The notes below the pieces were generated by a model. It made no database searches, had not been told where the DNA came from, and worked only from the letters and a program-made list of their open reading frames with translations. Below are positions 26,376 to 37,989 of a DNA stretch of 63,945 nt, one piece after another (position 1 is the first letter of the stretch; every line of letters begins with the position of its first letter). The stretch comes from an uncultured Opitutaceae bacterium. GTDB taxonomy: Bacteria > Verrucomicrobiota > Verrucomicrobiia > Opitutales > Opitutaceae. The translations under genes and the position numbers were made by a program. The stretch is taken from the NCBI GenBank assembly GCA_903919205.1, contig CAIXHE010000006.1:1-63945 (forward strand), read 5' to 3'.

Positions 26376-27770
26376 TCAGACGTTGCTCAGGCGGCCGGTC
26401 GAGTCGCCGAAGCGGTCGATCCCGGTCACCCCCGCCGTGTCGGCGAGGTTCAGGAAGAGGTTGGAGAGCGGCTTGGAGCCGTGCTGCACGTAGCGGCCCC
26501 CCCGGAACGCTCCGCCGCCCGCGCCCGCGAGCAGCACCGGGAGGTTCTCGTGGGTGTGGCGGTTGCCGTCGGCGTTGCCGCTCCCGTAGATGATGCGTGA
26601 GTTGTGCAGGATCGAGTGGCCGTCGACGTCGGGGATGGCGTCCATGCGCGCCAGGAACTTGGAGAACTGCTCGGCGTACCAGCGGTCGATCTGGGCGACC
26701 TTGGCCACGCGCTCCGGGTTGTTCTGGTGGTGCGAAAGGTCGTGGTGTCCCTCGGTGATGCCGATCTCGCTGAACGAGCGGTTGTCGCCGTCGTGGCCCA
26801 ATACGAAGGTCGCCACGCGCGTCGAGTCGGTCTTGAAGGCGAGCAGCATGATGTCGTACATGAGCTCGACATACTCAGCCTGGGCCGCGGGGATGCCCGC
26901 GGGCGTCGCCTGGTCGGGGTCCACGTTCGGGCCGAAGCGCTCGGCCTTCTCGATGCGCTTCTCCACGTCGCGGATGCCGGTCAGGTACTGGTCCAGCTTT
27001 TCCTGGTCGCGCCGCGCGAGGCGACGCTCCATGTCATGGGCGTCGGAGAGCACGAAGTCGAGGACGCTCCGGCGCGCCATCATGCGCTGCTGGGCGTTGC
27101 GGGCCCGCTCGCCATGGGCGCCGGCGCCGAACAGGCGCTCGAAGGCGAGCCTCGGGTTGGCCTCGGCCGGCATGGGGGTGGTGGGCGACTGCCACGAGAG
27201 ATTGTACTGGTAGGCGCAGGAGTAGCCCGAGTCGCAGTCGGCCGACTTGCGGGTCGAGTCGCAGCAGAGCTCGAGGGACGGGAAGCGCGTGAGGTGGCCG
27301 ACGTGGTTGGCGATCACCTGGTCGATCGAGATACCCGCCCGGATGTCCGTGGCGCTCTTGTTGAGGCGCACGCCGGTCAGGAACACGCCGTTGCCACGGG
27401 CGTGGTCGCCGCCGCCGTCGTTGCCTGCGTTGGCATTCTTGTGGGCGAGGCCGCCTAGCACCTGGACGTAGCGGCGCACCGGGTCCAGGGGCTGCAGGGT
27501 CGGACTCAGGCTGAAGTCGGTCTCTCCGCCCTGCGGCCACCAGCTACCGGGTATGGCCCCGTTCGGGAAGAACACGAAAGCCGTGCGCAGCGGCGCCCCC
27601 GTCGGCGTGGTCGCCAGCTGAAGGTCGCCCGAGCCGGCGCCGAGCACCCGGGTGGGCAGCAGGGAGCCGAACGCGGGCATCGCGATGCAGGCGCCGAGCC
27701 CGCGCAGGAAGTTGCGGCGGCTCATGGCCGCGAGGTGACGTTCGGTGGCGAGGTCTTGGGGAGTCTTCAT
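26376..27770 (-). CDS. DUF1552 domain protein with Tat-type signal
   Basis: A 464-residue protein of the DUF1552 family found mostly in Planctomycetes and Verrucomicrobia. A twin-arginine motif SRRNFLRGLG at residues 17-26 points to folded export by the Tat system. Beyond that are AFVFFPNGAIPGSWWPQG, LGGLAHKNANAGNDGGGDHARG, SVLDFVLSDAHDMERRL, GHHDLSHHQNN and GSGNADGNRHTHENLPVLLAG, the family's His-rich stretches that resemble DUF1501/sulfatase-like folds. Activity is not known. It follows the DUF1592 cytochrome gene by 7 bases. Met1 at 27770 is used; Met16 at 27725, directly before the RR motif, is an alternative start. Confidence 0.9.
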   Translation of the reverse strand: MKTPQDLATERHLAAMSRRNFLRGLGACIAMPAFGSLLPTRVLGAGSGDLQLATTPTGAPLRTAFVFFPNGAIPGSWWPQGGETDFSLSPTLQPLDPVRRYVQVLGGLAHKNANAGNDGGGDHARGNGVFLTGVRLNKSATDIRAGISIDQVIANHVGHLTRFPSLELCCDSTRKSADCDSGYSCAYQYNLSWQSPTTPMPAEANPRLAFERLFGAGAHGERARNAQQRMMARRSVLDFVLSDAHDMERRLARRDQEKLDQYLTGIRDVEKRIEKAERFGPNVDPDQATPAGIPAAQAEYVELMYDIMLLAFKTDSTRVATFVLGHDGDNRSFSEIGITEGHHDLSHHQNNPERVAKVAQIDRWYAEQFSKFLARMDAIPDVDGHSILHNSRIIYGSGNADGNRHTHENLPVLLAGAGGGAFRGGRYVQHGSKPLSNLFLNLADTAGVTGIDRFGDSTGRLSNV

Positions 27771-27777
27771 GTGTGGG

Positions 27778-30417
27778 CTACTGAGTGGTTTCTTCCTTGG
27801 ATCGCCCGGCGGGCGGCAGCGACGCCAGGTGCTGCTCCGCAGGCTGCCTGCGCTGCTGAAAGGGTGCCGAGTTAATGATTCCTTGCAACAGCACAGAGGG
27901 GCGCCCGCCCGACGCCTCGAGCGCGTCCACCAGGCGGTCCTCGGTCACGACGTCGTAGTAGTCGAGCGTGCGGCCGAGCGCGTACGTGAGGAGCTTGTCC
28001 GTGATGCAGTAGTAGAAGTCGCGGCGGCGGCTGGTCGCCAGCACGTGCTTGAGCTCGCGGATGTTGGAGAAGGTCTCCCCGGTGATCAGCTTGCCCGCCG
28101 GGTCGATGGACCGGGAAAGCTCGGCGTCCCGCCACTGGCCCATGGCGTTGAAGTTCTCGAGGGCCAGGCCGAGGGGGTCCATCCGGCTGTGGCACGCCGC
28201 GCAGGTCTTGTTGGACGCGTGGAGAGACAGGTTTTCCCTCAGCGTCATCGTTCGCAGCTTCTCCGGGCTCGCCGCGTCCTCGAGGGCGGGGATGTTCGGC
28301 GGGGGCGGGGGAGGACGCGTGCCGAGGATCGAGTCGAGGATGAACACCCCCCGCTTGACGGGCGAGGTGCGCGTGGGGTTCGACGTCACGGCGAGCACCG
28401 TGCCCTCGGTGAGCACGCCCCCGCGCGGGCTGTCGGGCGGCAGCGTGACGCGGCGCATCTGCTTACCCGTGACGCCGGGGATCCCGTAGTGCTTGGCAAG
28501 GTCCTCGTTGAGGAAGGTGTAGTCGCTGTCCACGAGCTCCAGTAGGCTGCGGTCGTCCCGGATGATGTAGGCGAACACCATCTCGCTCTCGCGGCGCATC
28601 GCCTCGCGCAGCGGGTTCGTGAGCTGGGGTTTTGGGGCCCTGAACATGGTCACGGCCACCTTGCGCGCCTTCGCGAAGGCCTCCTTGTCCTCGGGCGTTC
28701 GCTTCTCGTCCGGGATGCGCACGATGCGCCGGAACGTGGCCAGGGCCTGCTCCACGGCGGGATCCGGGTGCTCGCGCATGTAGACGGCGACCGGGTCGAT
28801 CTGGACCGTGGAGATATCGCGCGCCTCGAGCCACTGCCCCGTGAAGTTGCGCACGAATTCGGACGAGCGGGCATCCGCGAGCATCCGCGCGATCTGCGTG
28901 CCCAGGTTGGCCCGCAGCTGGCCGGCGGCGGCAAGCCGGAAAAGCTCGTCGTCGGGCATCGAGGACCAGAGGAAATAGGACAGGCGCGAGGCGAGCGCAT
29001 ACTCGTCGACATCCGGGTTCACCTGTCCGGGCTTGAGCGGCTCGACGTCCTCCTCCCTGAAGATGAAGCGGGGTGAGGCGAGGACAGCCACCATGGCCTG
29101 CGCCACGCCCGCCTCGAAGGTCCCCCCCGGCTGCCCGGAAACAGTCTCCTGCAGCGCCACCAGCCGGTCGAGGGTCGCTCGGTCAACGGGCCTGCGGAAG
29201 GCCCGACTGGCGAAGTGCGCCAGCAGGTCGCGAGCGTAGGCCTTGCGGCTTGGCGGCCACCACGGGACCTTGCCCGGGAAGAACATCTCGTAATGGTCGG
29301 GCTTCACCCAGAACTCGGGCGCCTGCGGGCCGCTGACGGTGACCGAGCCGAGGCGCAGGCGCAGCTGGCGCTTCTGGTCCTGGTCCGGCCCGAGGGGCTC
29401 CACCCGGAAGGCGAGGGGGTGGTCGCCCGGGTGCCAGGTGCGGTTGAAGGTGAACTCGAAGGTCTTCTCCGACTCGCGCACGAATTCCTGGCTAAGGAGC
29501 GTCTCGCCGTCGCACGTGAACACCAGCCGGCAGCGGTTCAGGTCGAACTGGTCGTCCACATAGGACTCGTCCGCGCGCAGGCTGACCGCGATCTGGTACT
29601 TGCCGTCGTGCTCCGCCCGGTAGGTGGCCGCAACCGTCGCCGGCGTATAGTAGGACAGCGTGAGCGCCTCCCCGTCCGCCTTGGGCGCGGGCCGCGCGAA
29701 CGGGCCGGCGGCCGGGGCGGCTCCGGGCCGGCTGCCGGCCAGGGTCGCCGGGGACTCGACCTTGACCGTGGCGAACTGGCTGCCCGGGATCTCGTGGTGG
29801 GCCACGACCTTCGGCTGCGTCGGGACCGCCACGCCGACAATGGTCTGAGCCGCGTCGAGGTAGTGCTCGAGCAGCAAGGGCGAGATGGTCAGCACGTCGG
29901 CGATGTTGTCGAAGCCCTGGCCGGTGTCGTCCGCTGGAAACTCCCTGAGCGTGTCGAAGTCCACTCCTGTCAGCTCGCGCACGCTGTTGCGGTACTCGAC
30001 CCGGTTCAGGCGCCTCAGGGTCACGCGGCCCGGGTCCGGGTGGTCGGGGTCCAGGTCGAAGGCCTTCAGCTTGATCCAGGTCATCAGGCGCTTCGTCTCC
30101 TCGGCGCTCAGGCGCTCCTCCTTTGCGGGCGGCATGATCCCGGCTCGCACGTTCTTCATCACGCGCCACCACAGAGCGTGGTTGCTCACGTCGGCGTCGC
30201 TCATGAACCCGTCGAGCTGCACGCCGCCCTTCTTGGCGCCGTCGCCGTGGCAGTCGTAGCAGTGCTCCTGGAGCACCGGCTCGGCTTCCTTCGTGAACGA
30301 CGCGAGCACCGATTCGGCGGACCTGCAGGGTAGCGCACCGATCGCGAGGCCAATTATCCCAAGCCACGCCCGAGGGGGGCGCGCGCCGGGGCGGGCTTGC
30401 GGAGTCGTCAATCGCAT
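27778..30417 (-). CDS. DUF1592 family cytochrome-like protein (DUF1587/1592/1588/1585)
   Basis: An 879-residue exported protein. After an N-terminal hydrophobic segment (about 18-33) there is a planctomycete-type cytochrome c domain with haem motif CYDCH at residues 53-57 and a distal Met in GIMPPAKEE. Then follow the DUF1587 stretch RRLNRVEYRNSVRELTG, a beta-sandwich middle (PSD-like) region, DUF1592 (SRLSYFLWSSMPDDELF), DUF1588 (a second CxxCH, CAACHSRMDPLGLALENF) and DUF1585 at the end. Two haems suggest electron transfer to a partner, possibly the DUF1552 protein encoded 7 bases downstream. The substrate is unknown. It has the best Shine-Dalgarno in the window, AGAGGAGG four bases before ATG. 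Confidence 0.92.
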   Translation of the reverse strand: MRLTTPQARPGARPPRAWLGIIGLAIGALPCRSAESVLASFTKEAEPVLQEHCYDCHGDGAKKGGVQLDGFMSDADVSNHALWWRVMKNVRAGIMPPAKEERLSAEETKRLMTWIKLKAFDLDPDHPDPGRVTLRRLNRVEYRNSVRELTGVDFDTLREFPADDTGQGFDNIADVLTISPLLLEHYLDAAQTIVGVAVPTQPKVVAHHEIPGSQFATVKVESPATLAGSRPGAAPAAGPFARPAPKADGEALTLSYYTPATVAATYRAEHDGKYQIAVSLRADESYVDDQFDLNRCRLVFTCDGETLLSQEFVRESEKTFEFTFNRTWHPGDHPLAFRVEPLGPDQDQKRQLRLRLGSVTVSGPQAPEFWVKPDHYEMFFPGKVPWWPPSRKAYARDLLAHFASRAFRRPVDRATLDRLVALQETVSGQPGGTFEAGVAQAMVAVLASPRFIFREEDVEPLKPGQVNPDVDEYALASRLSYFLWSSMPDDELFRLAAAGQLRANLGTQIARMLADARSSEFVRNFTGQWLEARDISTVQIDPVAVYMREHPDPAVEQALATFRRIVRIPDEKRTPEDKEAFAKARKVAVTMFRAPKPQLTNPLREAMRRESEMVFAYIIRDDRSLLELVDSDYTFLNEDLAKHYGIPGVTGKQMRRVTLPPDSPRGGVLTEGTVLAVTSNPTRTSPVKRGVFILDSILGTRPPPPPPNIPALEDAASPEKLRTMTLRENLSLHASNKTCAACHSRMDPLGLALENFNAMGQWRDAELSRSIDPAGKLITGETFSNIRELKHVLATSRRRDFYYCITDKLLTYALGRTLDYYDVVTEDRLVDALEASGGRPSVLLQGIINSAPFQQRRQPAEQHLASLPPAGRSKEETTQ

Positions 30418-30530: not shown

Positions 30531-32846
30531 TCAGGAGAGCCACGCCTCGAGGTCGTCGTCGTCGAGCAGCCTGCGCCCCCCGCGGTACTCTGGGGAGAGT
30601 AGCCGCTCGTAGCCCGCCTCGGCGAACCGCCTGCAGTGCAGGAGCACGCGAGCGCGCTGTCCCGGGGCGCGCACCAGCCGGCCCAGGGCCTGGTTCACCT
30701 TCTGCATCCCCGGAATGCGGTACACGCGGTCGAACGCCGCGTCCCGCTCCATGCGCGCGAGCCCGGCGAGCTTGGCCCTCTGCACGGGGTTCACCTCGGG
30801 GAGCGCCGGCCCGACCACCATCGCGCGGCTGACGCGGCCCCCGAGGAGGTCGATGCCCTCCGAGAAGCCGGACCCGAGGACGAGAAAGAGCGCGCTGCCG
30901 TCGGCGAGGGCGGTCTCGATCCACGCCCCCTGGGCGGAGAGGTCGCTGCGCCTCGGCTGGAGCACCGCCGAGGCGTACTCGCGCGCCACGGCCTCGGCAT
31001 AGGCGTAGCTCGGGAAGAACACGGCGATCGGCGCCCCCGTCCCCGCGCTCCGGTGGAGCCCCGCCACCGCGCGAACGGTGTCCGGCAGGAAGCGCTGACG
31101 CTGCTGGAACGAGGTGTCGACGCGCAGGTCCACCGCGACGTCGTAGGCGCCGTCGCGCCAGGGCGTCGACGCTCGCACGTGGGCGAGTCCGGCCAGCTCG
31201 CAGCTCTCCGCAAAGCGCTCGATCGGGCCGGGGGTCGCGGTCGAGAGGACCACCCCGCCGAAGTCGCGCAGGCTGGCCCCGATCGCGGCCGCCGGGTCGA
31301 GGCAGGCGACTGAGAGCGTCCCGTCGCGAGGGCTCCACCAGAGTCGGGGCAGTTCGATGCCCCCGAGCTGCTGGACCGCCGCCGGCACTCGCCAGAGGAT
31401 CGCGGAGGCGTGCGGCCCGAGCTCCGACGGGTCGATCGGATGGGCCGCCGCGCCCTCGGCGAGCCGCGACATGAGGCTCACCGCGTCCTCGCGCTCGGCC
31501 TCCGTCAGGGCGCCCGAGCGCCGCCGCAGCTCGAGGAGGCGCGCCCACTCGTCCCAGAGGGCGACCCACCGCGGGTGCGCGCGCACCCGCCCGAGCTCCC
31601 CGGCCACCTCGCGGGCCTCGCCCGCCTCGAAGGCGTGCGAGTGCGCGTCGGCGACGCGGCCCGGCAGGTTGTGGGCCTCGTCGATCAGGAGCAGCGTGCG
31701 CGATGGGTCGAAGCCGGGCCTCTCGTAGAACAGGCCCCGGCTCTCCGGCGAGAAGACGTAGTTGTAGTCGCCGATCCAGACGTCGTTGAAGGCGAGCGCG
31801 GCCCGCGTGATCTCGTAGGGGCAGATGCGGGCCCCGATGCCCGCGCTGCGCAGGGAGGCGAGGTCCCTGGGCTGGTCCTCAAGGAGGTAGAAGCGCGCCA
31901 GCCCGCTCTCGGGCCAGCGGCGCTCGGCCCCGTCAAGGTAGGCGCACGCCTCGCGCACGCACTGGAAGACCGCGTTGACGCAGTGCTCCGACTTGTTGCG
32001 CACGTGCCACGCCGCCACGGGCGCCCCCGCGCCGAGCCCGGGCCCGGGCGCGGTCATGGAGCGCAGGGTCTCGGACACGTGGAGCTGCCCCGTCGACTTG
32101 CTGGTCAGGTAGAGCACGCGCTCGAAGTGGCCGCCCCTCAGGGCGCCGAGGGCGACCTCGAGGAGGACGCCCGTCTTGCCGAAGCCGGTCGGGGCCTCGA
32201 GGAGGACGGCCGACTGGCCGAACTCGAGGGCCTGCCGGAGCTCGACGAGCGCCGCCTCCTGGCCCGGCCGCGGCACCTCGAAGGCCGGCCTGAAGCGCAG
32301 GTCGCGCAGCCTCGCCCGCGCCCTCAGGCGCAGGTCCAGGAACTCGACCACCCGCCGGAGCTGGACCTCGAGCAGGCGGTGGTCGCCCGCGTGGAGCGCC
32401 ACAGTCTGGGCGAGGCCGGTGTCGACCTCGACAAAGACGAGCTCGCAGGCCTCGCCCAGGCCCCGAAGGGCCGCGTAGGCGGCCACCTGCGCGAAGTAGT
32501 GCGGGTAGTCCGCCCGCAGCTCGTCCTCGCGGGTCGGGAGCGCGCGCGTCACGGTCTTTATCTCCCGCAGGACGGCGGCGCCCCCGGAGCGCACCACCTG
32601 GTCGATGCGGCCGCTGAGGGCGATCAGCCATCCCCCGCGTGCCAGCTCCCCGCTCACCGCCACCTCGAACTGCGTGTCCCCGCCCTCGGAGAGCGCCTGG
32701 GCCCGGAGGGCGTTGTGCCACTGCGTGCCCTGCTGGGCGCGCCAGAGGCCCCCGGACGAGCCGGACGAGCCGCGGGGCCCGAGCGTGAAGTCCGAGAGGT
32801 CGCCGACGCTCAGCTCGGCCCGGCGCCGGTCGAGGTCGACGTTCAC
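30531..32846 (-). CDS. PD-(D/E)XK nuclease fused to an Fe-S XPD/DinG-type helicase
   Basis: A 771-residue protein. Residues about 35-185 are a RecB/Cas4-like nuclease: His44 (QWHNAL), Asp82 (SGRIDQV), Glu95-x-Lys97 (LREIKTV) and Gln120 (YFAQVAAYA). Residues about 190-771 form a superfamily 2 XPD/DinG helicase: Walker A EAPTGFGKT (217-225), four cysteines at 289, 296, 301 and 342 for a 4Fe-4S cluster, with the last in ICPYEITRAAL followed by the typical WIGDYNYVFSP, DEAH at 389-392, and motif VI QALGRLVRAPGQR. All catalytic residues are intact. It probably unwinds and cuts DNA, a Dna2-like combination built on a different helicase class. GTG start at 32846 overlaps the upstream stop (GTGA), tying it to the RecO-like gene. 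Confidence 0.9.
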   Translation of the reverse strand: MNVDLDRRRAELSVGDLSDFTLGPRGSSGSSGGLWRAQQGTQWHNALRAQALSEGGDTQFEVAVSGELARGGWLIALSGRIDQVVRSGGAAVLREIKTVTRALPTREDELRADYPHYFAQVAAYAALRGLGEACELVFVEVDTGLAQTVALHAGDHRLLEVQLRRVVEFLDLRLRARARLRDLRFRPAFEVPRPGQEAALVELRQALEFGQSAVLLEAPTGFGKTGVLLEVALGALRGGHFERVLYLTSKSTGQLHVSETLRSMTAPGPGLGAGAPVAAWHVRNKSEHCVNAVFQCVREACAYLDGAERRWPESGLARFYLLEDQPRDLASLRSAGIGARICPYEITRAALAFNDVWIGDYNYVFSPESRGLFYERPGFDPSRTLLLIDEAHNLPGRVADAHSHAFEAGEAREVAGELGRVRAHPRWVALWDEWARLLELRRRSGALTEAEREDAVSLMSRLAEGAAAHPIDPSELGPHASAILWRVPAAVQQLGGIELPRLWWSPRDGTLSVACLDPAAAIGASLRDFGGVVLSTATPGPIERFAESCELAGLAHVRASTPWRDGAYDVAVDLRVDTSFQQRQRFLPDTVRAVAGLHRSAGTGAPIAVFFPSYAYAEAVAREYASAVLQPRRSDLSAQGAWIETALADGSALFLVLGSGFSEGIDLLGGRVSRAMVVGPALPEVNPVQRAKLAGLARMERDAAFDRVYRIPGMQKVNQALGRLVRAPGQRARVLLHCRRFAEAGYERLLSPEYRGGRRLLDDDDLEAWLS

Positions 32847-33460
32847 GGGATGAGGATGTCCGTGCTCGAGGCGAGGTAGCGCTCGAGGCTGTGGCGCAGC
32901 CGCTCGACCGCCTCGGCGGAGGCCTCCTGGCCGTCCAGGGGGCGGTTCAGCACCGAGGCGGCGGCCGGGCGGTCCGCCTCGCTGAGCGAGGGCATCCACT
33001 CCTGCTTCACCGGGTAGCCCTCGTCCCGCGCAAAGAGGTAGAGGCTCTTCAGGTACACCACGTCGGGCCTCGCCGCCTTGCAGAACGCGTCGAAGCCGGT
33101 CCGAAGCAGCCGGGTGACGGCCTCGCGGCTCTCCTCGTGGACGGGGTTGCGGCTGATCACCGCCGCCAGCGCGCTCGCGAAGCGCAGGGAGTCGTAGCTG
33201 CGCCCGATGGACGAGCGGCGGGTGAGGACGCGTGCCTCCCGCACGAACCAGGAGCGCCCCTGGTTGGAGCTCTCGAGCATCACCGAGAGGTCGTCAAAGA
33301 GGTCGGGCGCGACGTGCGTGCCCGAGGGCTTCCGCGGCATCCTCTGCAGGGCGAGCAGGTTGCCGTGCTCGGGCGAGAACAGCCCGAATCCCTGGAATGC
33401 GTCGGTGGGCGGCCGCTTCTCGATGACGAACGCCTCGGTGGTGAGCGTCTGGCCGGGCAC
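32843..33460 (-). CDS. RecO-like protein (divergent recombination mediator)
   Basis: A 205-residue protein. The first 75 residues resemble the RecO OB-fold (TEAFVIEKRPPTDAFQGFGLFSPEHGNLLALQR), and the helical part has ASALAAVISRNPVHEES, LLRTGFDAFC and LKSLYLFARDEGYPVKQEW, similar in order to RecO. The four-cysteine zinc finger of many RecO proteins is absent. Gene order supports the call: phoH-pgpH(yqfF)-ybeY lead towards recO in Firmicutes, and the same three genes precede this one here. RecO loads RecA on SSB-coated DNA and anneals strands. The start is GTG at 33460 with AGGAG about 11 bases upstream. It overlaps the nuclease-helicase gene by four bases. The assignment remains an inference; a structure comparison would decide. 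Confidence 0.6.
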   Translation of the reverse strand: MPGQTLTTEAFVIEKRPPTDAFQGFGLFSPEHGNLLALQRMPRKPSGTHVAPDLFDDLSVMLESSNQGRSWFVREARVLTRRSSIGRSYDSLRFASALAAVISRNPVHEESREAVTRLLRTGFDAFCKAARPDVVYLKSLYLFARDEGYPVKQEWMPSLSEADRPAAASVLNRPLDGQEASAEAVERLRHSLERYLASSTDILIP

Positions 33461-33474
33461 CGTGGGGCTCGCTC

Positions 33475-34155
33475 CTACTGCCGGGGCGCTTCGCCGGAGG
33501 CCGCCTCGGCGGGCCAGGGCGGTACGACCGCTCCCCCGGAGATGATCATCTTCATCCCGTCGCCGACGCTCATGTCGAGCTCGATGGCCTCGCTCTTGGG
33601 CAGCATGAGCAGGAAGCCGCCGGTCGGGTTCGGGGTGGTCGGCACGAACACCGTCCAGATCTCCTGGCCGGCCCTGGACTGCGCCTCCCCCTGCACGGTG
33701 TTGGTGAGGAAGCCGATGGTCCAGCAGCCCTTCCTTGGGAACTCGACCAGCACGACCTTGTTGAAGAGGTTGCGGTTCTGGGAGCTGAAGGTGTTCACGA
33801 TCTGGCGCACCGTGTTGTACACGGGGCTCACGCCCGGGATGCTCTGCATGAACCGGTGGCCCATGCGGAAGAAGTACTTGCCGAAGACGTAGCGCGATAC
33901 GAAGCCGAGCAGGGTCACCAGGAGGATGACGAGCAAGGTTGCCAGGATGTCCCAGACCATCTCCAGGCTGTGACGGTCCCGCAGGGTTTCGGGGACGAGC
34001 TTGAGGAAGAGCGGCCGGAAGGTGCCCCCCACGAGCACCACGATGTAGCTGAAGACCCAGACGGTGATCGAGAGCGGGGCCACCAGCACCACGCCCGAGA
34101 AGAAGGCGTTGCGCAGCGTGACGTAGCGGGAGTCTCTGGTCGCGGGATCGGGCAT
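33475..34155 (-). CDS. DUF502 family membrane protein
   Basis: A 226-residue protein with two membrane helices, at about 18-42 (FSGVVLVAPLSITVWVFSYIV) and 66-90 (VWDILATLLVILLVTLLGFVS). The family motif follows: MQSIPGVSPVYNTVRQIVNTF, then KVVLVEFPRKGCWTIGFLTN, WTVFVPTTPNPTGGFLLMLPKSEAIELDMSVGDGMKMIISGG, quoted in part. This PNPTSG-like loop defines DUF502. Function is unknown; homologues in plants (LCV) affect membrane trafficking. It lies between ybeY (34-base gap) and the RecO-like gene (14-base gap) on the same strand. Confidence 0.92.
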   Translation of the reverse strand: MPDPATRDSRYVTLRNAFFSGVVLVAPLSITVWVFSYIVVLVGGTFRPLFLKLVPETLRDRHSLEMVWDILATLLVILLVTLLGFVSRYVFGKYFFRMGHRFMQSIPGVSPVYNTVRQIVNTFSSQNRNLFNKVVLVEFPRKGCWTIGFLTNTVQGEAQSRAGQEIWTVFVPTTPNPTGGFLLMLPKSEAIELDMSVGDGMKMIISGGAVVPPWPAEAASGEAPRQ

Positions 34156-34189: not shown

Positions 34190-34666
34190 CTACGCCAGCT
34201 TGAAGCGGGGCAGCGCCCCGGCGGAGTCGATCAATGTGAGCGCGCGGGCCTCGGCGCGGCGCATGGAGCGCTTGAGGTCGGGGCGCAGGTCGTCGTAGCC
34301 CGCCAGGTGCAGCCAGCCGTGCACCACGTAGAGGGTGAGCTCGCGCGAGAAGGCGGCCGCGGAGCGGCCTGCGACCCGCGCGGCCGCGTCGGCGGAGACG
34401 CAGATCTCCCCGGCGTGCCCGAGCGCGGGGTCCCCCCTGAAGGTGATCACGTCGGTGCGGGACGGGTCGCCGAGGAACCGCCCGTGGAGCGAGGCGAGGG
34501 CCCGGTCCGTGACGAAGGCGACCGAGAGATCGCCGTCGGGGCATCCCCCGCGGAAGGAGGCGCCCCGGGCGTCCAGGAGGGCGATCGCCGCGGCGACGGC
34601 GGCTCGGTCCAGCCGCAGGCGGGGGTGGCGGCTCGCGATGTCCAGGGCGCGACGGGCGCCCGTCAT
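34190..34666 (-). CDS. ybeY: Endoribonuclease/rRNA maturation factor YbeY
   Basis: A 158-residue protein with the YbeY zinc motif HGWLHLAGYDD: His116, His120 and, in the third ligand position, Asp126, where E. coli has His. The upstream TDVITFRGD (71-79) and GEICVSADAA (86-95) are the other conserved parts. YbeY is required for 16S rRNA 3' end maturation and ribosome quality control. The Asp in place of the third His also occurs in other YbeY-like proteins and could still bind metal. Its ATG overlaps the stop of the PgpH gene (ATGA), the usual operon partner along with phoH. Confidence 0.93.
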   Translation of the reverse strand: MTGARRALDIASRHPRLRLDRAAVAAAIALLDARGASFRGGCPDGDLSVAFVTDRALASLHGRFLGDPSRTDVITFRGDPALGHAGEICVSADAAARVAGRSAAAFSRELTLYVVHGWLHLAGYDDLRPDLKRSMRRAEARALTLIDSAGALPRFKLA

Positions 34667-37002
34667 GCCTTGGCCTCGCTCGGCTGCTCCCCGGGCGTCG
34701 TGTACGCGACCCTCGAGTGCAGCATGTTCAGGAGCGTGAAGGTGAAGCTGTTCTTGATCTTCGCCAGGTCCTCGAAGGTGAGCGGCGCCTCGTCCAGCTG
34801 CCCGTCGGCCACGCGCTCGGCGATCATCCGGTCGATCAGGGCGCCCAGCTTCTCGGCCGTGATGGTGCGCACCGAGCGCGTCACGGCCTCGACGCCGTCG
34901 GCCAGCGAGATGACGGCGCTCTCCTTGAACTGGGGCTTCGGGCCGTCGTAGCGGAAGGGGGTCTCGGGCACCGAGGGCGGGGCGACCCCGGGGAAGGGCG
35001 ACTGCGAGAGCTCCTGGGCCCGCAGGTAGAAGTACTTCACGAGCGTCGTGCCGTGGTGCTGGCGGATCACGTCGATCACCGCGCGCGGCAGCCGGTGGCG
35101 CACCGCCAGCTCGACACCGTCAGTCACGTGCTGGCGGATGATCGCCGCCGAGGACGCGGGGTCCTTCTCGTTGTGGGGGTTGCCCCCGTCCCTCTGGTTC
35201 TCGGTGAAGTACGCGGGGTTGGCCGCCTTGCCGATGTCGTGGAAGAGCGCGCAGGTGCGCGCCAGCAGCGCGTTCGCCCCCACCGCGTTGCAGGCGTTCT
35301 CCGAGAGCTGCGCCACGACGAGCGAATGGTGGTAGGTTCCCGGGGCCTCGAGCTGCATGCGGCGCAGAAGCGGGTGGTTGAAGTCCGTGAGCTCGAGGAG
35401 CGTGATGTCGGTCGTGCGCTTGAAGAGGGACTCGAGGACGGGAAGGAGGCCGACGACGGCGATGCCGGTGAGGAGCCCGGTCAGGAGCCCGGCGGCCATC
35501 TGCCAGACGAGCGTGTCGACCGGCGTCTGCTGCGCCACGCCGATCAGGGCCGCGAAGGCCGCCACCGTGAGGCCGCCCATGCCCGCCGCCCGCACGACCC
35601 GACCGCGCCTGCGCGCGTCGCGGCAGCCGAAGATGGCGACCATGGAGGCGAGGAACGTGAGCACCAGCAGGTCCAGGCGGTTGCCGTAGATGACGCCCGT
35701 GAAGATCGAGATGAGCAGCGCCATGAAGATGGCCGAGCCGGCGTCGATCAGGATGGCCACGATCAGCGGGGCGAGCGCCGTCGGGGCGAGGTAGGGGAGC
35801 GCCGAGGCCCAGGTCGAGTCCCGCACGAAGAGCTCCGCGCCCCCGACCGAGTACACGGCGCGCACGAGCGCCAGGTTGAAGATGACGACGAGCGCCAGGA
35901 GCCCCAGGCGCACGTTGCTGGCGAGGGTCTCCGGGTCCTCGAGCCGGACATAGAGGATCGAGGCGAGCACCATCGCGAGCACCAGCAGCACGCGCCCGAA
36001 GAGCTCGAGGCCGTCGTCCAGGTCGGCCGAGCTGCCCTCGAGCGCCGCCTTGCGATAGGCCGTGGCCATCTCGTACTGCTCCTCGGTCACCCGGTCGCCG
36101 GCGTCGACGATCGTTCGGCCGGGCGACACGCTGACCGTGACGGGCTTCAGCTTGCTCAAGACGGCGGCCTCGCGGGTCGCGGCGGCCTCCCGGTCGAACA
36201 CGAGGTTCGACTGCACGCCGCCCCTGAACAGGCGGAAGAGGGCGCGCGCGGCCGGCTTCGGCACGCCCTCGGCGGCCAGGCTCACCCGCAGGAAGGTGAG
36301 CGCGTCCTCGAGGGACTGGACGGGCCTCGCGGCCACGCCGCCCGACGGGCGCTCGATCTCGAACATCTCGACGGCGTCCGGGGCGGCGCCCACGGCCGAC
36401 GAGTCGTGCACGCCCTCGCTGTAGATCTGCCGCAGGGCCGCGAAGCCGTTCTCGAAGTACGTGGCTCGGGCGGACGCGTCGCCGGCCGACAGCAGCGCCG
36501 CCAGGTCGTCCGCGTTGGTCTCGTAGCGGCCGCTCGAGTTGAACTCGTCGGCGATCGCCCCGAGGGCGGCCTTGCGGTTGAAGAAGAGCGCCGTCGGGTC
36601 CGGGTGGGCCGCCTCGAAGGCCGCGAGCTTCTGGAGGAGCTGCTGGGCGGCCGACTCGAAGCGCTCGAGGGGCGCCGTGTCGAGGCGGTAGATGGGGGGC
36701 AGGCGGCTCAGGCGCTGCTCGCGCTCGGCGCGGGTGCGCTCGGTGCTCACGTACGAGAACGGCACGCCGGCCACGATCCGGACCGGGGCGATCTGATTGG
36801 GCAGGACGGGCAGGTCGAGCACGCGCATCCCGGCCGAGCTCACGACCACGATGGCCGCGACCGTGACGACGAAGATCAGGCCGGCCACGAGCCGGCTCTG
36901 GTCTAGGAAGTCCCGGAAGGCCGAGCCCGAGCTCGTCGTCAGGTCGCCCCGGCGCGCCCCGAGGCCGCCCATCAGGAGCTCAAGCTGGTTGCGGACCGAC
37001 AT
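34663..37002 (-). CDS. 7TM-HD phosphohydrolase, PgpH/YqfF-type (probable c-di-AMP phosphodiesterase)
   Basis: A 779-residue membrane protein. A single helix at about 38-58 is followed by an extracytoplasmic 7TMR-HDED sensor region (about 65-340, with PVLPNQIAPVRIVAGVPFSY and SVSPGRTIVDAGDRVTEEQYE, shown in part), seven membrane helices (about 345-550) and a cytoplasmic HD domain with HHSLVVAQLSENAC, ALFHDIGKAANPAYFTENQ and RHRLPRAVIDVIRQHHG. In Listeria PgpH this domain hydrolyses c-di-AMP to pApA. The HD ligands are intact. The gene sits between phoH (3-base gap) and ybeY (ATGA overlap), the conserved arrangement of this family. Confidence 0.92.
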   Translation of the reverse strand: MSVRNQLELLMGGLGARRGDLTTSSGSAFRDFLDQSRLVAGLIFVVTVAAIVVVSSAGMRVLDLPVLPNQIAPVRIVAGVPFSYVSTERTRAEREQRLSRLPPIYRLDTAPLERFESAAQQLLQKLAAFEAAHPDPTALFFNRKAALGAIADEFNSSGRYETNADDLAALLSAGDASARATYFENGFAALRQIYSEGVHDSSAVGAAPDAVEMFEIERPSGGVAARPVQSLEDALTFLRVSLAAEGVPKPAARALFRLFRGGVQSNLVFDREAAATREAAVLSKLKPVTVSVSPGRTIVDAGDRVTEEQYEMATAYRKAALEGSSADLDDGLELFGRVLLVLAMVLASILYVRLEDPETLASNVRLGLLALVVIFNLALVRAVYSVGGAELFVRDSTWASALPYLAPTALAPLIVAILIDAGSAIFMALLISIFTGVIYGNRLDLLVLTFLASMVAIFGCRDARRRGRVVRAAGMGGLTVAAFAALIGVAQQTPVDTLVWQMAAGLLTGLLTGIAVVGLLPVLESLFKRTTDITLLELTDFNHPLLRRMQLEAPGTYHHSLVVAQLSENACNAVGANALLARTCALFHDIGKAANPAYFTENQRDGGNPHNEKDPASSAAIIRQHVTDGVELAVRHRLPRAVIDVIRQHHGTTLVKYFYLRAQELSQSPFPGVAPPSVPETPFRYDGPKPQFKESAVISLADGVEAVTRSVRTITAEKLGALIDRMIAERVADGQLDEAPLTFEDLAKIKNSFTFTLLNMLHSRVAYTTPGEQPSEAKA

Positions 37003-37005
37003 GGC

Positions 37006-37989
37006 TCAGCGGGCCGGCGCCGTCCCGGCGTCGGACATGGGGTTCTTGAAGCGGTCGTAGGCCTCGATGATGCGCTGGACCAGGGGGTGGCGCACGACGT
37101 CGGAGCCGCTGAAGGTGTGGAAGACGATCCCGGGCACGTCGCGCAGGATGTGGCGCACCTCGAGGAGCCCGGACTGCTTGGAGCGGGGCAGGTCGATCTG
37201 GGTCACGTCGCCGGTCACGACCATCCTCGAGTCCTCGCCCAGGCGGGTGAGGAACATCATCATCTGCTCCGGGGTCGTGTTCTGGGCCTCGTCGAGCACC
37301 ACGAAGGCGCGCGAGAGCGTGCGCCCGCGCATGTAGGCGAGGGGCGCGATCTCGATCACGCCCTTCTCGGTCAGCTTCACGACCTCCTCGGGCTCGAGCA
37401 TGTCGTTGAGGGCGTCGTAGAGCGGCCTCAGGTAGGGAAGGATCTTCTCACGGAGGTCGCCGGGCAGGAAGCCCAGGGTCTCGCCGGCCTCGACGGCGGG
37501 CCGGGTGAGGATGATCCGCTCGACCTCGTGGTTGAGGAGGGCGGAGACGGCGGCGGCCATGGCGAGGTAGGTCTTGCCGGTGCCGGCAGGCCCGATACCG
37601 AAGACGATCGGCTCGCGCAGCACCGACTGGAGGTACTCCTTCTGGCCAAGGGTCTTCGGGACGACGCTGCGGCGGTGGGTCGCGATCACGAGCGGATCGT
37701 CAAGCAGCGCCTGCCACTTGCCACCCTCGCCGCGGGCGAACGCGTCGACCAGGCGGGCGAAGTCCGGCGAGCGGATCGTCATGCCCTGCGTGCGCGCCTC
37801 GTTCAGGAAGCCGAAGAACTCCTCGGCCACGGCGAGCGGGTTCTCCGGGGCCTCGATCTTGAGCCAGTCCTCCCGGGTGACGAGCGTGACCCCGAGCGCC
37901 CTCTCGGCGTGGACGAGGTTCTCCTCGCGGCCCGCGTAGAGCTGGCTCAGGTGCCTCGGGCTCTGGAAATGCAGCGTCTTTGCAGGCAT
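37006..37989 (-). CDS. phoH: PhoH family ATPase
   Basis: A 327-residue cytoplasmic P-loop ATPase related to superfamily 1 helicases. An N-terminal KH-like region (LHFQSPRHLSQLYAGREENLVHAERALGV, quoted in part) is followed by GQKEYLQSVLREPIVFGIGPAGTGKT with Walker A at 133-140, RPAVEAGETLGFLPGDL, Walker B AFVVLDEAQNTTPEQ and TGDVTQIDLPR. It is the long PhoH (YbeZ-like) type that interacts with YbeY in rRNA metabolism, consistent with its place directly before pgpH and ybeY. ATG at 37989 is 12 bases after the HIT gene stop. Confidence 0.95.
   Translation of the reverse strand: MPAKTLHFQSPRHLSQLYAGREENLVHAERALGVTLVTREDWLKIEAPENPLAVAEEFFGFLNEARTQGMTIRSPDFARLVDAFARGEGGKWQALLDDPLVIATHRRSVVPKTLGQKEYLQSVLREPIVFGIGPAGTGKTYLAMAAAVSALLNHEVERIILTRPAVEAGETLGFLPGDLREKILPYLRPLYDALNDMLEPEEVVKLTEKGVIEIAPLAYMRGRTLSRAFVVLDEAQNTTPEQMMMFLTRLGEDSRMVVTGDVTQIDLPRSKQSGLLEVRHILRDVPGIVFHTFSGSDVVRHPLVQRIIEAYDRFKNPMSDAGTAPAR

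Follow-up and report, generated by a model that had tools for sequence, protein, structure and literature searches.

A predicted EndoDinG-type nuclease-helicase encoded next to a divergent recO gene in an Opitutaceae contig

EndoDinG enzymes, in which a nuclease is joined to a DinG-type helicase, have been named and structurally solved, yet their cellular role is not given in the portions of the EndoDinG literature examined here. Here, we describe a gene for such a fusion, overlapping a divergent recO, on contig CAIXHE010000006.1 of an uncultured Opitutaceae bacterium (assembly GCA_903919205.1); the whole stretch analysed, 63,945 nucleotides, is referred to as the window. We are highly confident of the identities of both proteins, an EndoDinG-type fusion and a RecO. 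As the best overall explanation we slightly favor an EndoDinG repair enzyme accompanied by the recO of the lineage, whose product would act on the resulting single-stranded DNA (ssDNA), and we regard a direct functional link between the two proteins as somewhat less likely than not. Opitutaceae, Opitutae, or Verrucomicrobia appear in the titles of the closest database loci, which suggests that the DNA belongs to this group. Conservation was assessed in a near set of 81 rows, comprising the window and 80 loci that are the best of 139 relatives, a sample skewed toward close kin. The features of the two genes are as follows, and the initial annotation, made from the sequence alone, had placed the fusion and its overlap with the upstream gene correctly.

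30531-32846, minus strand: EndoDinG-type fusion gene, PD-(D/E)XK nuclease plus XPD/DinG-type helicase, 771 amino acids (aa), GTG start
32307-32846, minus strand: PD-(D/E)XK nuclease domain, approximately residues 1-180 (H44, E61, D82, E95, K97, Q120), from PDDEXK_1, conservation, and secondary structure
32172-32195, minus strand: helicase motif I, APTGFGKT, residues 218-225
31821-31982, minus strand: iron-sulfur (Fe-S) cluster region, C289-C296-C301-C342, in 81 of 81 near rows
31671-31682, minus strand: helicase motif II, DEAH, residues 389-392
32843-32846, minus strand: GTGA overlap of the recO stop and the fusion start, 4 bases
32843-33460, minus strand: divergent recO, oligonucleotide-binding (OB) fold plus helical domain, 205 aa

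The domain assignment of the fusion, already made in the initial annotation, is borne out by hidden Markov models (HMMs), as PDDEXK_1 (residues 58-149, E 7.4e-5), DEAD_2 (residues 282-406, E 6.4e-12), and Helicase_C_2 (residues 607-751, E 1.1e-19) all match above their Pfam cut-offs. The active-site residues it had named recur throughout the near set (H44 in 77, D82 in 78, and E95, K97, and Q120 in all 81 rows), as does E61 (78/81), and the shortfalls at H44 and D82 are alignment gaps. The DEAH motif is likewise present, and each of the four cluster cysteines is found in 81 of 81 near rows; this last claim holds for the window and its close relatives but not for several other families of the order. 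Near-set frames were read to the first stop and lack internal stops by construction, so that the real test of the frame is the conservation of its C-terminal residues. C738 and W769 are kept in every row, and because in each relative the frame remains open as far as the final conserved positions, a chance open reading frame is ruled out.

The predicted structure agrees with this assignment. An AlphaFold2 model of the fusion, built from 43 aligned sequences, has a mean predicted local distance difference test (pLDDT) score of 88.1 and a predicted template modeling score of 0.87, and the expected PD-(D/E)XK fold is seen in it, with residues 33-128 modeled as a helix, three strands, and helices. 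The top Foldseek match (E 4.8e-43) is the Finegoldia magna DinG entry 9KQH, which VIA-align superposes over 702 residues spanning 7-755 (Z 27.0, root-mean-square deviation (rmsd) 5.6 Å, 22% identity). XPD and DinG structures rank after it and cover the fusion only from approximately residue 172, so the VIA-align rows scarcely probe residues 1-170, and 9KQH is the single entry spanning the nuclease part. The nuclease assignment is thus based on the HMM match, the residues, the secondary structure, and a single relative solved at full length. At the position of D82, the deposited chain 9KQH_A has an alanine, where an aspartate stands in the window and in 26 further homologues of the comparison; perhaps, as a guess, the deposited protein is an engineered catalytic mutant. 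No paper on 9KQH was among the matches listed.

The identity of the upstream gene is carried by its fold. For the 205-aa protein itself, family-model scans listed no family, with RecO models absent even at E ≤ 1. In a scan of 67 aligned sequences, with E up to 1, RecO_N matched 35 (best 6.5e-5), TIGR00613 matched 20 (best 2.4e-5), and RecO_C matched one. The predicted model (mean pLDDT 92.0) has an N-terminal OB fold and a C-terminal helical domain in the RecO arrangement, and all 11 Foldseek matches at E < 0.001 are RecO or RecO-RecR entries. VIA-align matches it to seven solved RecO entries with Z 13.7-18.4, the closest being 1W3S of Deinococcus radiodurans (Z 18.4, rmsd 3.0 Å, 194 residues), while the best non-RecO row reaches Z 10.1 over only 75 OB-fold residues. 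A sequence search of the PDB with the RecO-like alignment gave 15 weak matches, mostly sulerythrin or rubrerythrin (best E 0.059), and no RecO. Elsewhere in the window's own genome, which is 88% complete, RecO_N gives a single chance-level match (E 0.39) with an internal stop, and RecO_C gives none. Across 39 sampled genomes of the window's order (Opitutaceae and relatives, families labeled f1-f6), TIGR00613 points to this same recO locus in 19, never above its cut-off, and weak matches off the locus (E 0.09-0.88) occur in G163, G228, and G010. Judging from the model and these scans, the 205-aa gene is the recO of the lineage and the sole credible RecO of its genome. The call is firmer than the "RecO-like" of the initial annotation because the fold match is joined by a recO-type neighborhood and no other credible RecO is found in the incomplete genome.

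That neighborhood, upstream of recO, consists of the following genes.

33475-34155, minus strand: DUF502 protein gene, 14 bp upstream of recO (PF04367, 2.3e-34)
34190-34666, minus strand: ybeY (PF02130, 3.1e-20)
34663-37002, minus strand: pgpH-like 7TM-HD hydrolase gene (PF07698, PF07697, PF01966)
37006-37989, minus strand: phoH (PF02562, 4.7e-93)

The order phoH-pgpH-ybeY-DUF502-recO presumably resembles the surroundings of recO in other bacteria. The six flanking genes scanned belong to housekeeping or unrelated families. The gene downstream of the fusion (27778-30417) encodes planctomycete-type PSD/PSCyt domains and is followed at 26376-27770 by a second gene that resembles, by appearance and not by family scan, the usual partner of such genes. 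Another contig of the same genome (C145; L002, 271-2337) encodes a further DinG-like helicase, 689 aa long, which matches Helicase_C_2 and DEAD, has DEAD_2 just below its cut-off, and shows no listed nuclease domain.

The pairing of recO with the fusion is frequent among close relatives. recO lies upstream of the fusion in 70 of the 80 near loci; of the ten others, six start less than 250 bases from a contig end, and L021, L039, L054, and L065 show no recO within the available stretch. The 4-base overlap is shared by the eight nearest relatives (L003-L010). Among 240 Verrucomicrobiota genomes picked independently of the fusion (E ≤ 0.001), 47 have the fusion and 41 a RecO-like gene. Within the order, the RecO-like gene is carried by 39 sampled genomes, 35 of which also have the fusion, and no genome has the fusion without recO; each of the 35 has one fusion match, the two pieces in G119 being one gene. 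The two genes lie within 300 bp in 14 of these genomes, within 1.1 kb in four more (18/35), and within 7 kb in a further three (21/35). By family, spacing of at most 300 bp occurs in f1 (13 genomes) and f3 (one genome), and spacing of approximately 1 kb in f5 (three genomes). Outside the order, where 12 sampled genomes have the fusion, only G004, of another class, pairs it with recO, through a 4-base ATGA overlap at the fusion start; G004 is the sole member of its order and class in the collection and counts as a single case. Its RecO is of the zinc-finger type with CxxC pairs; RecO_C matches it above cut-off (4.6e-11), whereas its matches to RecO_N and TIGR00613 stay under their cut-offs. A tree of 42 fusions, rooted at the midpoint only, places G004 next to the clade of the order, and both together split from the rest with support 96/97; a common origin of the recO-linked fusions is possible.

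Two observations on individual fusion loci stand apart. In the single-contig genome G088, the matched fusion span (L094) contains one in-frame TAA, which may reflect a disrupted gene or an effect at the span boundary. On the Legionella plasmids L195 and L217, an EndoDinG-type gene overlaps a GIY-YIG gene within a plasmid repair-gene island that has Ku on the upstream side and, on the downstream side, umuD and genes for Y-family polymerases; the GIY-YIG protein of L195 has an RNase_T match at the edge of the score cut-off (23.1 versus 24 bits).

How might the fusion and RecO work together? XPD-family motors travel 5' to 3' along single strands, and RecB/Cas4-type nucleases cut using bound metal. 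By analogy with its family, the EndoDinG-type fusion would be expected to load on ssDNA and move 5' to 3'. It would enter at 5' flaps, single-stranded gaps, or forks that are blocked and then unwind, while its RecB/Cas4-like N-terminal nuclease would cut the strand that is displaced or threaded through. The upstream RecO would then anneal the remaining ssDNA or, with RecR, load RecA on it; RecR was found in 16 of 17 genomes checked. We give this course of events, processing by the fusion followed by RecO action, an even chance. The fusion is most likely a housekeeping helicase-nuclease for gaps, 5' flaps, and blocked forks, housekeeping rather than mobile because a single fusion match occurs in 35 of 39 genomes of the order and its neighbors are phoH, pgpH, and ybeY. 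Sequence and predicted fold show both fusion domains with intact active-site residues, the RecO fold, and a gene order kept in part of the order; polarity, substrate, a role at flaps or gaps, and any link between the two proteins, whether physical or functional, are what we infer. The recO neighborhood provides a concrete hypothesis for EndoDinG, namely RecFOR-type gap or fork repair, and the frequent pairing in the Opitutaceae group points to a repair job shared with the fusion.

Several results weigh against a joint role. In 14 of 35 genomes of the order recO and the fusion are unlinked, three times far apart on the same contig and 11 times on separate contigs, one of the latter being G145, in which a contig end cuts the locus so that linkage is not judgeable. 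Four of the 39 genomes have recO without the fusion, and RecO can therefore do without it. In 10 of the 12 fusion-bearing genomes outside the order the best recO is distant or on another contig (the place in G218 is not listed). Among 11 stretches from other bacteria and phage-collection records, the three annotated ones list no recO in their incomplete gene tables, and the eight unannotated ones gave no match in a weak test, whose in-house iterative RecO profile, run over stop-to-stop frames, had drifted to overlapping and shadow frames. The one checked genome that yielded no RecR is the window's own, which is 88% complete. Comparing profiles between the RecO-like alignment and the G004 RecO gave no significant match (probability 0.5%), and the strand polarity of the fusion is taken from its family. 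An obligate two-gene module is rejected on the incomplete linkage in the order; of the proposal in the initial annotation, the close linkage stands for most near loci, but a fixed module of recO and fusion does not, and the coupling it suggested, in which resection or flap cutting would precede strand annealing or RecA loading, stays a hypothesis.

The same counts feed the strongest alternative, in which the two genes are neighbors by inherited gene order only, the fusion having fallen downstream of recO ancestrally while the products share no functional link. We consider this only a little short of an even proposition. The pairing is loose, phoH, pgpH, ybeY, and DUF502 have no obvious function in common with the fusion, and related genomes are non-independent samples for linkage counts. 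The recurrence of close pairs in f1 and f3, of approximately 1-kb spacing in f5, and of an overlap in another class (G004) speaks against it, as does the 4-base overlap kept by the window and its eight nearest relatives.

The Fe-S site of the fusion is eroded within the order, unlike its nuclease. We compared 36 rows, in which the window appears twice, corresponding to 35 distinct proteins: G004, G218, and 33 from the order. Each of the 35 proteins has HDEKQ at the nuclease positions, and all 36 rows, even those that lack the Fe-S site, retain intact helicase motifs I, II, and VI. Four cysteines (CCCC) occupy the cluster columns in G004 and, within the window's family, in 18 of 19 proteins, the exception being G045 (CCFC). 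The first cysteine is lost in f5 (three), f2 (six), and f6 (two); f5 and f2 also lack a cysteine in the third column, with another one close by. No cysteine is left at this stretch in f4 (G134, G157) and f3 (G102), and one of four is left in G218. Partial or total loss in f2-f6 concerns loci L102-L105, L107-L113, L173, L185, and L187. According to a 2025 review, DinG-like variants with one of four cysteines replaced may still bind a cluster, and CasDinG domains are unable to hold one (PMC11981726). One order that spans four cysteines to none offers a natural series for the role of the Fe-S cluster in an XPD-family motor.

Possibly the nuclease is the main activity of the fusion, with the cluster dispensable and the motor mostly a regulatory ATPase or translocase, a division of labor reported for Hna. 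The nuclease residues kept in all 35 proteins, against cysteines gone in G102, G134, and G157 and altered in f2, f5, and f6, fit this view, as does Hna, a defense protein reported to have no Fe-S cluster and a nuclease inhibited by ATP (PMC13381803). The intact helicase motifs, even in rows without the site, and the four cysteines of the window and nearly all of its family do not, and we consider this reading unlikely, at about one chance in four. Somewhat less probable still is an ancient bacterial equivalent of Dna2-type end or gap processing to which RecO and EndoDinG are dedicated together, in which the fusion would make ssDNA and a co-translated RecO would pass it to RecA; the nuclease would be its indispensable part in this order, because the active site is kept in every row while the Fe-S site, usually a hallmark of XPD-family motors, is dismantled stepwise. 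A CRISPR-linked or anti-phage function, as in CasDinG or Hna, is suggested by a match of PADLOC profile PDLC01439 (typeIV_DinG) to residues 186-751 (E 1.1e-54) and by the defense role reported for Hna (PMC13381803), but we reject it as highly improbable for a gene present once per genome in 35 of 39 genomes of the order, among housekeeping genes, with no CRISPR-like direct repeats in the window, a domain order opposite to that of Hna, and an Fe-S site.

Comparison with known systems narrows the identity of the fusion further. Type IV-A CasDinG is rejected on the same six flanking genes and the absence of array-like repeats from the window. A replacement of AddAB by the fusion is likewise rejected, as paired large PDDEXK_1 frames with starts 3.3-3.9 kb apart, taken as AddAB from size and pairing, occur in 9 of 16 genomes of the order (G010, G018, G060, G088, G091, G099, G116, G122, and G206); among the same 16, PDDEXK_1 matches nothing in G102 and just the fusion in G000. 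Eukaryotic Dna2 has a nuclease-then-helicase layout, a superfamily 1 motor, and an Fe-S cluster in its nuclease. The window's fusion shares the layout, and flap or end processing is proposed by analogy, but its motor is of the superfamily 2 (SF2) XPD type and carries the cluster site, and its nuclease part has no conserved cysteine, the only one, C134, occurring in 7 of 81 rows; identity with Dna2 is rejected on the motor. Hna combines an N-terminal DinG-like SF2 motor with a C-terminal PD-(D/E)XK nuclease on one chain (PMC13381803), and its motor aligns with the fusion model at Z 16.8. Identity with Hna is rejected since the domain order in the window is reversed, with the nuclease N-terminal, and the four cluster cysteines are present.

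The RecO model resembles 1U5K and 1W3S of D. radiodurans, 3Q8D of Escherichia coli, and 8AB0 of Thermus thermophilus over near full length (Z 15.8-18.4), whereas the 205-aa protein, with a single cysteine, lacks the zinc-finger cysteines and is too divergent for RecO HMMs. 9KQH, a crystal structure with ssDNA and ADPNP, aligns over both nuclease and helicase, although only approximately one fifth of residues are identical. The matches listed in our literature search contain no report of a RecO-EndoDinG pair or a Verrucomicrobia RecO-DinG operon, which is weak evidence of absence.

The closest known system is EndoDinG itself, the name given to the nuclease-DinG architecture in the 2025 review, with DinG of Bdellovibrio bacteriovorus HD100 as representative (PMC11981726). 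Its section on EndoDinG lists H, E, D, E, and K as nuclease residues, cites unpublished data for endonuclease rather than exonuclease activity of the Bdellovibrio protein, and makes no mention of recO (PMC11981726). The initial annotation was thus right that similar fusions exist in databases, while its view of them as poorly characterized is partly outdated by this name and by 9KQH. The window's fusion has the N-terminal PD-(D/E)XK nuclease with H/E/D/E/K, the XPD/DinG-type motor, and the CCCC motif, and the order of its nuclease secondary-structure elements fits the description in the review; it differs in that its relatives in other families of the order have lost Fe-S cysteines. By its predicted domains, active-site residues, CCCC motif, and modeled fold, the fusion is of the EndoDinG type, an architecture already known, for which a place next to recO in this order may be a new setting.

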